From: Amphritea japonica ATCC BAA-1530
GTDB taxonomy: Bacteria; Pseudomonadota; Gammaproteobacteria; Pseudomonadales; Balneatricaceae
Reading direction: 5' to 3'
NCBI RefSeq assembly: GCF_016592435.1
Contig: NZ_AP014545.1
Coordinates: 3,046,693-3,110,692, forward strand
DNA length: 64,000 bases
In this document: in pieces, positions 16,323 through 18,421 of the stretch
Numbering within the stretch: the stretch's first letter is position 1
How the letters are laid out: each line of letters starts with the position of its first letter
Notes under the pieces: model-generated
The model's database searches: none
Seen by the model: only the letters and a program-made list of their open reading frames with translations
What the model was told of the DNA's origin: nothing
Made by a program: the position numbers and the translations under genes

Positions 16323-16480
16323 TAGTAGCGGGGCCAGATTAATTCATAACAGTCTGTTGACTGTTATGCCCCTTCGGGCTTCGACGCTTCACGTCTTGAT
16401 GCTAATTATGCTCTAAGCACAATTAGTTAACTGACGACCCTCCTGACCTTACAAAAAACCGAGCCCGACGTTTTCACTGA
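16323..16480 (-). pseudogene. Decayed tRNA-fMet copy P1, split by an 84-88 bp insertion
   Basis: The 3' tRNA region is recognisable on both sides (GTAGCGGGGCCAGATT and AACTGACGACC) and the terminal CCA is mutated (TAG instead of TGG on the plus strand). An insertion of about 87 bases separates the halves. It is the most diverged copy in the array. Confidence 0.7.
16343..16426. mobile_element. Small hairpin-rich insertion flanked by TTAA
   Basis: The insert inside P1 is bounded by TTAA (16339-16342 and 16427-16430), which may be a target duplication. It carries a perfect hairpin CATAACAGTC / GACTGTTATG (16345-16368), a GCCC/GGGC hairpin, and an imperfect hairpin CTAATTATGCT / AGCACAATTAG at the other end. 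It encodes nothing and has no terminal inverted repeats. Confidence 0.45.
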
Positions 16481-16512
16481 TAATTATTAACGCCTAAATT
16501 TCAGACAAAAAA

Positions 16513-16534
16513 AGACCAACCTTTCGGCTAGTCT
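16513..16534 (-). terminator. Terminator hairpin of array unit P2
   Basis: Minus strand AGACTAGCC-GAAA-GGTTGGTCT followed by T7. The loop matches that of the next units but the stem sequence is different and still pairs. Confidence 0.8.
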
Positions 16535-16546
16535 GATTTTATACGT

Positions 16547-16611
16547 TGGTAGCGGGGGCCAGATTTAAACTGACGACCTTCCTACCCTTATAAAGAGCCG
16601 AGCCCGACGCC
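16547..16611 (-). pseudogene. Truncated tRNA-fMet copy P2
   Basis: Retains the T arm, acceptor 3' strand and encoded CCA of tRNA-fMet and the D-stem/anticodon junction CGTCGGGCTC. The anticodon loop is replaced by about 18 other bases (GGCTCTTTATAAGGGCAG) and the acceptor 5' strand is missing, so it cannot make a tRNA. Confidence 0.85.
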
Positions 16612-16645
16612 TTTCTTTTTAAGACCATAAATTTCAGACACAAAA

Positions 16646-16671
16646 AAAGGCATATCTTTCGATACACCTTT
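16646..16671 (-). terminator. Terminator hairpin of array unit P3
   Basis: Minus strand AAAGGTGTATC-GAAA-GATATGCCTTT, an 11-bp stem with two G-T pairs and a GAAA loop, then a T-run. Confidence 0.85.
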
Positions 16672-16682
16672 AATTATTACGT

Positions 16683-16747
16683 TGGTAGCGGGGGCCAAGT
16701 TTTGAACTGACGACTTCCTGCCCTTATAGTGAGCCGAGCCCGACGCC
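16683..16747 (-). pseudogene. Truncated tRNA-fMet copy P3
   Basis: Same structure as P2, 136 bases further on. It has point changes (GGCCAAGTTTTGAACTGACGA) and a variant replaced loop. Confidence 0.85.
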
Positions 16748-16782
16748 TTTCTCCACAAAAAGCACAAATTTCAGACACAAAA

Positions 16783-16808
16783 AAAGGCATATCTTTCGAT
16801 ACACCTTT
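16783..16808 (-). terminator. Terminator of intact tRNA-fMet copy 1
   Basis: Same hairpin as at 16646, 11 bases after the encoded CCA of the intact gene. Confidence 0.87.
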
Positions 16809-16819
16809 AATTATTACGT

Positions 16820-16896
16820 TGGTAGCGGGGGCCAGATTTGAACTGACGACCTTCGGGTTATGAGCCCGACGAGCTACCAGGCTGCTCCACCCCGCA
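16820..16896 (-). tRNA. Initiator tRNA-fMet (CAT), copy 1
   Basis: A 77-base cloverleaf with CCA encoded. Initiator hallmarks are the three G-C pairs of the anticodon stem (CGGG-CTCATAA-CCCG) and no Watson-Crick pair at the top of the acceptor stem (T opposite T). The D arm GAGCAGCCTGGTAGCTC and T arm GTCAG-TTCAAAT-CTGGC pair correctly. It is the promoter-proximal member of the left array block. Confidence 0.97.
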
Positions 16897-16910
16897 TCAA
16901 CGTGGGGCGT

Positions 16911-16939
16911 ATACTACATACGAGTTACTCTCTTGGCAA
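16911..16939 (-). promoter_or_regulatory. Promoter of tRNA-fMet copy 1
   Basis: Minus strand TTGCCA, 17 bases, TAGTAT, followed by a GC-rich discriminator (CGCCCC) typical of stringently controlled stable RNA promoters, about 15 bases before the tRNA 5' end. Confidence 0.75.
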
Positions 16940-17136
16940 ACGATTTCACAGAAAAACTGATAAATAATTCCAGACTCCCAAAACAAGCTTAGCCGCCTTA
17001 TATGAACAGCAGTAGAAATGGCATTAACGTAACTTATTTCTAGCCTTCCCTGCTAGAGAGAATCATCTAATGGTACAGGCGAGGCACACCCTTTTAATTA
17101 AAAAGTAAATCCGTAAATAATAGCCCTGAATCACTT

Positions 17137-17505
17137 TCAAAACCGGTAAGAGACCCCCATTCCGATGCGCCCCTTAACGCTACCCAGCCATACACCCGGA
17201 TCCTTTCTGTCTTCTGAATCCAGACTGTATAGTGCATACACTCCAGAAGAAACACGGACCAACATAAACTGGCCTGTATCAACGTTCGCAACCCGATTAT
17301 TTTCCTTGCGTAAAGCTACTGAGGAGGGAGCACCAAGCGCAGTATACCCTTCAAACTGAAGCGGCATGTTCTGTTCACTTTGCTCAGGAGCATCACTTTC
17401 CAGAGCACTTGAAAGCAGGTCTGCCAAGCCGTCCAAACCGCTACAATGCCCACTGACAGGAAGCAGAAGCAGGAGAGACATTACTGGAATCAGATATCTG
17501 TTCAT
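17137..17505 (-). CDS. Small secreted protein of unknown function
   Basis: 122 residues from the ATG at 17505, which has AGAGGA eight bases upstream; a longer frame to 17544 would put 13 polar residues before the signal. MNRYLIPVMSLLLLLPVSG is a clear signal peptide ending near His/Cys; the Cys does not sit in a good lipobox. The mature part is polar with a beta-like second half (VDTGQFMLVRVSSGVYALYS) and ends in GVSYRF, an aromatic C-terminus as in outer membrane proteins, but it is too short to call a barrel. It lies alone between the two tRNA-fMet array blocks. Confidence 0.6.
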   Translation of the reverse strand: MNRYLIPVMSLLLLLPVSGHCSGLDGLADLLSSALESDAPEQSEQNMPLQFEGYTALGAPSSVALRKENNRVANVDTGQFMLVRVSSGVYALYSLDSEDRKDPGVWLGSVKGRIGMGVSYRF

Positions 17506-17583
17506 CGCTTTATTCCTCTTCAAAGCTAATGAAGTTTCAATCAACCCACGTGTTGTTAGCCCCCCCAGGCATCAAACCCTAAA

Positions 17584-17701
17584 CAAACAATTGTTTGATC
17601 ACTTTGTGAACAAAAGATAACACAGTCCAAAAGGATAAAAGCAGGTCTATGTCAGTTTCCTTCACCTCAATTACCCAATTTGGGTAATGCTTACAGACCT
17701 G
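17584..17701. promoter_or_regulatory. Palindrome-rich region upstream of the secreted protein gene
   Basis: Three nested symmetries: CAAACAATTGTTTG (17584-17597, perfect), ATTACCCAA-T-TTGGGTAAT (17670-17688, perfect), and an outer pair CAGGTCT / AGACCTG (17642-17648 and 17695-17701) around the latter. They may be regulator sites or a folded RNA; no T-run follows, so a terminator is unlikely. Confidence 0.45.
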
Positions 17702-17895
17702 TTTCAGAACACCGACACTTCCTCTCTGACAGAGTGTATATTATTAGCATCTATTATCTATCAGCCCCCCAAAAGCCTGTAATTTCACTGGGGACAACAA
17801 CTTTGAAAATTGAGATCACCCTCCTCATATAGAACCTAACCAGCACCTTTCCAACCCACTTTCGCCAAGAGATTTCACCTTTTATCAGCACAAGA
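17702..17895. other. Gene-free gap before the right array block
   Basis: About 190 bases between the palindromes and the first terminator of the right tRNA block. I see no gene or RNA in it; a frame on the minus strand here only runs through the decayed tRNA copy. Confidence 0.5.
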
Positions 17896-17921
17896 AAAGG
17901 CATATCTTTCGATACACCTTT
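17896..17921 (-). terminator. Terminator hairpin of array unit P4
   Basis: Same GAAA-loop stem as the left block (GATATGCC form), although it lies in the right block. The T-run is broken (CAAGAAAA on the plus strand). Confidence 0.75.
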
Positions 17922-17932
17922 AATTATTACGT

Positions 17933-17997
17933 TGGTATCGGAGGCCAGATTTGAACGGACGACCTTCCTGCCCTTATAAAGAGCCGAGCACGACGCC
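17933..17997 (-). pseudogene. Truncated tRNA-fMet copy P4
   Basis: Same layout as P2 with changes in the acceptor strand (GTATCGGAGGCC) and T arm (GAACGGACGACC). Confidence 0.83.
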
Positions 17998-18032
17998 TCT
18001 CTTCGCAAAGACCATAAATTTCAGGCACAAAA

Positions 18033-18059
18033 AAAGGCATGCCATTACGACACACCTTT
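18033..18059 (-). terminator. Terminator hairpin of array unit P5
   Basis: Second stem version: minus strand AAAGGTGTGTC, loop GTAAT, GGCATGCCTTT, then T-run. Compared with the left block, an A-T pair has become G-C and pairing is kept. Confidence 0.83.
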
Positions 18060-18070
18060 AATTATTACGT

Positions 18071-18135
18071 TGGTAGCGGGGGCCAGATTTGAACTGACGA
18101 CCTTCCTGCCCTTATAAAGAGCCGAGCACGACGCC
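18071..18135 (-). pseudogene. Truncated tRNA-fMet copy P5
   Basis: Retains GGTAGCGGGGGCCAGATTTG and the same replaced anticodon loop. 138 bases from P4. Confidence 0.85.
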
Positions 18136-18169
18136 TCTCTTCTTAAAAGCACAAACTCTAGGCACAAAA

Positions 18170-18196
18170 AAAGGCATGCCATTACGACACACCTTT
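18170..18196 (-). terminator. Terminator hairpin of array unit P6
   Basis: Identical to the hairpin at 18033. Confidence 0.83.
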
Positions 18197-18207
18197 AATT
18201 ATTACGT

Positions 18208-18271
18208 TGGTAGCGGGGGCCAGATTTGAACGAACGACCTTCCTGCCCTTATAAAGAGCCGAGCCGACGCC
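18208..18271 (-). pseudogene. Truncated tRNA-fMet copy P6
   Basis: As P5 with GAACGAACGACC in the T arm and one base lost near GAGCCGACGCC. 137 bases from P5. Confidence 0.85.
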
Positions 18272-18306
18272 TTTCTTCGCAAAGACCATAAATTTCAGGC
18301 ACAAAA

Positions 18307-18333
18307 AAAGGCATGCCATTACGACACACCTTT
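18307..18333 (-). terminator. Terminator of intact tRNA-fMet copy 2
   Basis: Same hairpin as at 18033, 11 bases after the CCA end, with a seven-base T-run. Confidence 0.86.
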
Positions 18334-18344
18334 AATTATTACGT

Positions 18345-18421
18345 TGGTAGCGGGGGCCAGATTTGAACTGACGACCTTCGGGTTATGAGCCCGACGAGCT
18401 ACCAGGCTGCTCCACCCCGCA
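18345..18421 (-). tRNA. Initiator tRNA-fMet (CAT), copy 2
   Basis: Identical to copy 1 over all 77 bases and over the ten bases before its 5' end. It heads the right array block and lies 137 bases from the pseudo-copy P6. Confidence 0.97.

Follow-up and report, generated by a model that had tools for sequence, protein, structure and literature searches.

What are the repeated half-tRNAs that follow two initiator tRNA genes of Amphritea japonica ATCC BAA-1530? The locus lies in a 64,000-nucleotide stretch of contig NZ_AP014545.1 (positions 3,046,693 to 3,110,692; hereafter the window), where two identical tRNA-fMet(CAU) genes, T1 and T2, each head a tandem array of degenerate copies of themselves (arrays A and B). 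An earlier note, made from the letters alone, had proposed integration scars, a recombination-amplified array or a source of tRNA-derived RNAs. We consider it fairly probable that these arrays correspond, for initiator tRNA, to the RtT repeats of Escherichia coli and are satellites of the tRNA trailer, multiplied by unequal recombination and probably transcribed when RNA polymerase reads past the tRNA terminator.

Two initiator tRNA genes and their downstream units

Both intact genes lie on the minus strand and were called by ARAGORN and by the Rfam tRNA model (RF00005, 59.7 bits each). Three tandem units follow each in the direction of transcription, B1, B2 and B3 behind T2 and A1, A2 and A3 behind T1 (Table 1). 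Tandem Repeats Finder (TRF) reported arrays of period 137 at 16542-16850 and 17888-18379. The three programs together confirm intact genes heading tandem degenerate copies, as the earlier note had it, and reading of the sequence upheld its view that the copies have a replaced anticodon loop and lack the acceptor 5' strand. Measured from CCA to CCA, a unit comprises ACGTAATAATT, an intrinsic terminator, a spacer of ~35 nt and a pseudo-tRNA of ~65 nt. One such pseudo-tRNA runs CGTCGGGCTC, bracketed GGCTCTTT, ATAAGGGCAGGAAGGTCGTC and then the remaining 3' half up to CCA. The D arm is missing along with the acceptor 5' strand, the tRNA 3' half is kept, and the anticodon arm is altered, with an interrupted loop and the layout GGGCTC-RR-CTCTYN-ATAA-variable-GAAGG. 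ARAGORN and Rfam called only the two intact genes in the array region; the copies lack the acceptor stem, D arm and seven-base anticodon loop of a functional tRNA gene.

Two statements of the earlier note held in part. The spacing of 136-138 bp applies to the short units of the window; A3 departs from it, its 5' half being in register (139 bp) but its 3' end lying 224 bp from that of the next unit, because its T loop carries a four-hairpin insert (~16346-16426). A final CCA and a following terminator are found in most copies. The exceptions are A3, which is degenerate at CCA (it reads CTA) and has no terminator after it in the terminator scan, and B3, which is followed by a terminator-like hairpin whose interrupted T tail left it unflagged.

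In the window's own genome (G000; 3.83 Mb, one contig; other G labels denote genomes and L labels fetched loci) the unit query gave 10 matches, namely both array loci and the third tRNA-fMet gene, the latter over its last 31 bases only. Chance origin is excluded, because the own-genome matches are confined to the arrays and the tRNA-fMet 3' end and because matches recur across the genus. The third tRNA-fMet gene adjoins tRNA-Leu(GAG) and has no array. Elsewhere, a tRNA-fMet gene after tRNA-Leu(GAG) has altered copies directly behind it in L116, L117 and L153 (a Psychromonas and two metagenome-assembled genomes of Nitrincolaceae).

Altered copies among relatives

The search of related genomes that the earlier note proposed matched 17 of 17 genomes of the genus (Amphritea/Aliamphritea). 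Altered copies are counted in 16 of the 17 because the three matches of G012, a draft of ~540 contigs, cover only the tRNA 3' end. A profile built from five window units was run against loci that had been fetched for having hits, and 24 genomes yielded 136 altered copies, of which 113 reach CCA and count as full; CTC-N1-2-CTCTNNATAA was kept in 101 of the 136. Copies lay downstream of 34 of the 43 intact tRNA-fMet genes in the loci read, at 1-14 per gene, a proportion that is not a population rate because the loci were fetched on account of their hits. The nine genes without copies were the Leu-linked gene of G000, one whose contig ends 93 bp away and seven in G052, G104 and G108. Every copy that lay within 2.5 kb of an intact gene in these loci was on the same strand as that gene. 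Median copy spacing was 141 bp (range 95-254, 92 intervals), and the pseudo-tRNA was conserved far better than the spacers. Unit types were mixed within arrays, and some adjacent units were identical; together with the range of copy number, this fits the recombination-amplified array that the earlier note had suggested. Amplification in tandem, confined to a tRNA trailer and with repeat ends formed by the tRNA 3' end and terminator, suits unequal recombination.

Wide-span model hits were counted from ~61 nt in the survey of the family (an intact tRNA gives 52 nt) and from 58 nt in that of Shewanella. They occurred in at least 9 of 16 genera of the family, to which locus reading added a tenth (g8), and in at least 29 of 77 Shewanella genomes. 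The exact altered-arm pattern was present in at least 80 stretches. By eye, 68 of these adjoin tRNA-fMet or run into tRNA-like sequence (among others in Shewanella, Psychromonas, Motilimonas, Paraferrimonas, Acinetobacter, Halomonas, Aestuariirhabdus and Marinobacterium), and the other 12, which have no tRNA context, were dropped as chance matches. The element is widespread and patchy.

In none of the genus loci read did the units take the form of complete tRNA genes. Outside the genus, in Shewanella pneumatophori, one member of a tandem tRNA-fMet cluster has the full tRNA body and its neighbours' spacers, but an altered anticodon arm. At L145 (uncultured Shewanella) copies alternate with intact genes, and by eye their acceptor stems are changed on both sides (CGTGTGA/TCACACA and CGCGTGAA/TTCACGCA vs CGCGGGA/TCCCGCA); three copies of L133, the second of L144 and the third of L143 were left out of this comparison. 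The initiator C1-A72 mismatch is kept in the L145 copies, and 2 of 5 have one mispaired position. Such two-sided changes are hard to attribute to decay, though template switching between the arms is possible. Separately, at ~1020-1300 of L158 (G581) the copy spacers contain the inverse complement of the anticodon arm and form long hairpins, which by eye have the look of template switching.

These data bear on a neutral explanation, in which unequal crossover, conversion by the intact tRNA and template switching at hairpin arms homogenise degenerate tandem copies of tRNA-fMet, with no RNA function and with terminators merely co-duplicated. Strong variation of copy number and unit type among related genomes, exact-repeat units within arrays and patchy occurrence all suit it, as does the inverse complement in the G581 copy, an expected product of template switching. 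T stems are broken in a number of short units (from a table that includes rows shifted out of register by indels), and PMC2965389 assigns the RtT-like elements found elsewhere among enterobacteria to interspersed mosaic repeats. Against it stands the altered anticodon stretch, common to several genera in the 101 copies above, which conversion with the intact tRNA cannot maintain because the intact tRNA lacks it. The L145 copies, with acceptor stems changed on both sides and the 1-72 mismatch retained, also speak against it. Weighing these points with those from terminators and long forms below, we judge a purely neutral origin unlikely, at roughly one chance among four.

The 3' ends of tRNA genes are classic att sites. 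If the arrays were scars left there by successive rounds of integration and excision, or miniature integrative elements with att sites, each displaced 3' half would be an attachment-site remnant. In L241, L247 and L248 (genus relatives) an RtT follows a tRNA 3' half without its 5' half, which by eye looks as if an island had entered the tRNA and taken the 3' end and RtT along to its far end. The searches of mobile DNA do not favour this origin. Viral contigs gave a single altered-arm match (L157), judged to be chance, and phage and plasmid records matched only 25% of the query, its last 35 bases, which are the tRNA 3' end; a phage or plasmid origin was rejected on these grounds. No integrase is among the families listed between paired arrays (G004, 7 of 13 ORFs; G002, 8 of 12; G006 and G054, 44 of 48). 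Those families are metabolic, transport, secretion and regulatory; for G006 and G054 they are 25 of 79. Several of the proteins between arrays have no family. The units, moreover, bring along the terminator of the tRNA itself, and their length is insufficient for a gene. The integration traces of the earlier note thus went unsupported, and on the sequence evidence such scars are very unlikely.

Terminators and the long form of the unit

Strong terminators were defined by a stem of at least 7, an energy of -8 kcal/mol or lower and a T tail, and were sought after the 114 units with enough flank to be read. They followed 100 of the 114; the same definition picked out 4 of 570 shuffled flanks and, on the opposite strand, 8 of 114. 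A looser scan with no energy limit did not discriminate (110/114 real vs 210/342 shuffled) and yielded 59 distinct hairpins. Within the window, the terminators after A1 and A2 differ in sequence and both are fully paired. Retention of strong terminators, in hairpins of many different sequences, argues against the neutral explanation. In L053 (probably Marinobacterium nitratireducens), copies at 3116 and 3300 have a GTAGGTTGGGTCTAGCGACGAAGTCGCGTA-type palindromic repeat in the expected terminator place.

The strand bias, 100 units against 8, is also what would be seen if the unit were selected solely for stopping transcription repeatedly and thereby insulating highly expressed tRNA genes. Such back-up termination leaves unexplained both a pseudo-tRNA conserved far above its spacers and the covarying T-loop hairpins described below, and it sits poorly with the Shewanella pneumatophori copy inside a tandem tRNA cluster. 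We give it very little credence. As for initiation, a sigma-70-like promoter precedes T1 (TTGCCA-17-TAGTAT), and boxes resembling it were seen by eye upstream of several relatives' genes. Promoter-like sites in the region numbered 2 vs a chance expectation of 3.5, and one of the two falls within A1 on the other strand.

The T loop of A3 carries four hairpins, I to IV, and the same four-hairpin insert stands at the same T-loop site in other genomes of the genus and in Aestuariirhabdus. Judged by its sequence, A3 is not a unit broken by a random insert. The insert is present once in the genome, and a dispersed repeat was rejected for that reason. Long forms contain GCCCGAAGGGGC, hairpin IV and GAATAAATC. 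Twelve were aligned, the degenerate ones of G013 and G007 being left out. Across the T stem and four hairpins 93.0% of cells were paired, compared with 30-38% in slid controls; 13 of 30 pairs were changed on both sides, and the covariation score was 0.392 vs 0.228 for shuffled alignments. None of 500 shuffles was as high in pairing and two-sided changes. The A3 fold (16323-16445) had a z score of -5.51, with 0 of 200 shuffles as good, and three further long forms gave -3.00, -4.39 and -2.02. RNAalifold on all units with their flanks was uninformative because terminator types differ. Covariation of the long forms across families is a further point against neutral homogenisation.

Among the neighbours of the arrays (Table 1), Pfam identified the DsbA-like gene beside an array in G004 and the cold-shock-domain gene beside one in G002; other relatives showed only ORFs of comparable length. 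The 135-aa ORF between the arrays, which by eye has an apparent signal peptide, had no Pfam family, and its N-terminally trimmed form of 116 aa had no viral relative. A block at 10774-16121, in which sulfotransferase and glycosyltransferase domains were recognised (12031-14817), separates array A at its distal end from a LigB dioxygenase gene (9148-10074); L044 has a LigB gene close to an array.

Table 1. Features of the two arrays and their surroundings (window positions), and RtT matches elsewhere in the same genome (G000 positions)
Feature	Position	Strand	Basis
T2, tRNA-fMet(CAU), head of array B	18345..18421	-	ARAGORN; RF00005 59.7 bits
Unit B1: flank, terminator, spacer, pseudo-tRNA with final CCA	18208..18344	-	TRF, repeat spacing, sequence reading
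Unit B2	18071..18207	-	TRF, repeat spacing, sequence reading
Unit B3, distal in array B	17933..18070	-	TRF, repeat spacing, sequence reading
T1, tRNA-fMet(CAU), head of array A	16820..16896	-	ARAGORN; RF00005 59.7 bits
Unit A1	16683..16819	-	TRF, repeat spacing, sequence reading
Unit A2	16547..16682	-	TRF, repeat spacing, sequence reading
Unit A3, long form; pseudo-tRNA 16323-16469, T loop with multi-hairpin insert	16323..16546	-	sequence, folding, covariation
Hairpin I in A3 T loop	16402-16426	-	
Hairpin II in A3 T loop	16383-16395	-	
Hairpin III in A3 T loop	16368-16379	-	
Hairpin IV in A3 T loop	16346-16367	-	
Intrinsic terminator of T2, inside unit B1	18307..18333	-	terminator scan
Intrinsic terminator after B1	18170..18196	-	terminator scan
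Intrinsic terminator after B2	18033..18059	-	terminator scan
Terminator-like hairpin after B3, interrupted T tail	17896..17921	-	sequence reading
Intrinsic terminator of T1, inside unit A1	16783..16808	-	terminator scan
Intrinsic terminator after A1	16646..16671	-	terminator scan
Intrinsic terminator after A2	16513..16534	-	terminator scan
Sigma-70-like promoter of T1	16911..16939	-	consensus match only
135-aa ORF between arrays	17137-17544	-	
DsbA-like gene beside T2	18547-19161		Pfam
Cold-shock-domain gene beside T2	19234-19644		Pfam
RtT x3, period 181 bp, behind tRNA-Tyr (L235)	G000:C1:1091959-1092450		RF00391
RtT behind tRNA-Lys (L234)	G000:C1:3253429-3253565		RF00391
RtT behind tRNA-Val (L236)	G000:C1:1345137-1345248		RF00391
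RtT behind tRNA-Ser(GGA) (L237), weak	G000:C1:2872747-2872870		RF00391; 25.6 bits, E 0.015

Relation to RtT and other tRNA-trailer elements

To our knowledge, discussion of RtT has centred on E. coli and its tRNA-Tyr locus, and the role of RtT is unsettled. There, tyrV is followed by three 178-bp repeats that end in the last 19 nt of tRNA-Tyr and score 134-138 bits with the RtT covariance model (RF00391; gathering score 45 bits); another copy, located between the two tRNA-Tyr genes, reaches 133 bits. In the genus, 16 of 17 genomes matched RtT at E ≤ 1, 13 of them over the cut-off, and of 14 control genomes only E. coli matched. G000 has six RtT matches, two over the cut-off, all on the same strand as tRNA genes and behind them. 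The earlier note had called the array restricted to initiator tRNA; this is refuted, because the same genome has RtT matches behind tRNA-Lys, -Tyr and -Val and, weakly, -Ser. Behind Tyr, Lys and Val the units end in the host tRNA's own 3' end, followed by its flank and terminator. ARAGORN found a tRNA gene in 11 of 16 fetched RtT loci, and three of the other five hold a tRNA 3' half without the 5' half. GCCCGAAGGGGAATAATC is exact in 5 RtT copies of the loci read, and a looser form occurs in 26 of 35 (25 of 31 outside E. coli). A candidate antisense relation, seen by eye between GCTCGGCTC of the fMet units and the RtT motif GAGCCGAGC, was dropped as it fails in copies with GA or AG.

A mechanism along RtT lines can be proposed. 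Each unit takes over the 3' end of its host tRNA (T arm, acceptor 3' strand and CCA) and the terminator. That 3' end is joined to a stretch in which the anticodon is out of use, and in the long forms the T loop is expanded into conserved hairpins. Copies would be gained and lost as the repeated 3' ends and terminators recombine unequally. RNA polymerase that runs past the tRNA terminator would produce a trailer of one or more units, each with a tRNA-like CCA end and a terminator, from which tRNA 3' processing could release small structured RNAs. Release of this kind has been reported for RtT: PMC4986893 and PMC2965389 describe an RNA from the tyrT transcript, released during tRNA processing and with a possible role in the stringent response. 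Read-through transcription, processing and any regulatory role of the fMet units are what we infer from sequence. The third suggestion of the earlier note, a source of tRNA-derived RNAs, is plausible, given the retained terminators and the conserved structure of the long forms.

Several observations weigh against the RtT-like reading. By eye, no convincing promoter was found inside the units on the tRNA strand, so distal copies would need read-through of several terminators. RF00391 had no match in window positions 16200-18500 (E ≤ 5) or in L160, L048, L132 and L119 (E ≤ 10), and conversely the long-form model (R2) does not match RtT units. The exact pattern was found in only 2 of 390 genomes of the order sample and recovers 1 of the 6 units of G000. 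Wide-span copies were found in only 3 of 96 gammaproteobacterial genomes, namely G000 itself, G536 and G581. The exact pattern also fixes bases that afterwards appear conserved, for which reason the profile count is the fairer one, itself still made from window units. A relative's copy in L058 has no tRNA-fMet in the 6 kb read. As to structure, further standard pair types in the long form show no excess (27 vs 28.0 shuffled), and five short units fold modestly better than shuffles or not at all (z 0.05 to -2.35). The variable part of the altered anticodon arm has no excess pairing (mean -5.5 real vs -6.3 shuffled); a conserved hairpin there was rejected, shuffled arms folding better than real ones.

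A broader idea is tentative, and we rather doubt it than believe it. Many gammaproteobacterial tRNA genes might each have a private RtT-like family of trailer RNAs that copies the 3' end of its host. In the fMet branch, the deliberately disabled anticodon would then mark a structured, CCA-ended regulatory RNA tied to the supply of initiator tRNA, for example a decoy for maturation enzymes or a small RNA (sRNA) sponge. In any case, RtT-like architecture now stands behind initiator tRNA in several gammaproteobacterial families, with RtT matches behind Lys, Tyr, Val and Ser in one genome. Dozens of natural variants, including the full-length tRNA-like forms of Shewanella and the covarying long forms, therefore make the origin, structure and function of tRNA-trailer repeats testable by comparison. 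ARAGORN and Rfam miss the fMet copies, and such loci are open to being misread as integration scars.

In the open-licence literature, titles and abstract openings disclosed no paper on tRNA-fMet trailer arrays, and a word search of PMC5143459 found nothing on pseudogenes, on tandem, degenerate or truncated forms, or on Shewanella. Two known elements are comparable, going by published descriptions. tRNAOther of Bacillus cereus is a pseudo-tRNA in a larger regulatory RNA, with deletion phenotypes (PMC3399842). It resembles the fMet pseudo-tRNAs in being a non-decoding tRNA-like element, but is a single element flanking an island in a Gram-positive, whereas the fMet copies form a tandem array. 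The leuZ 3' external transcribed spacer of E. coli is likewise a tRNA trailer; once excised, it functions independently as an sRNA sponge (PMC8166272); it is one spacer of 53 nt, and tandem pseudo-tRNA units are not part of that description.

RtT of E. coli is the closest comparison. In both systems tandem units lie directly behind a tRNA gene on its strand, each ending in the tRNA 3' end, CCA and flank; the fMet arrays show this arrangement, with the CCA of A3 degenerate (CTA). In RtT a T-loop-like stretch is expanded into hairpins with a CCCGAAGGG module; of the fMet units, A3 and 11 other long forms have such an expansion, and the five short units of the window have none. As E. coli has an RtT copy between two tRNA-Tyr genes, so some altered fMet copies lie between tRNA genes. 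The fMet units differ in standing behind initiator tRNA, in their period of ~137 bp (178 in E. coli RtT, 181 behind tRNA-Tyr of G000) and in keeping a recognisable altered anticodon arm and a mostly unexpanded T loop. Because the architecture is shared while neither model matches the other's units, we regard the fMet arrays as RtT-like elements outside RF00391 as built, which look like RtT and, to judge from their sequence, probably work like it.

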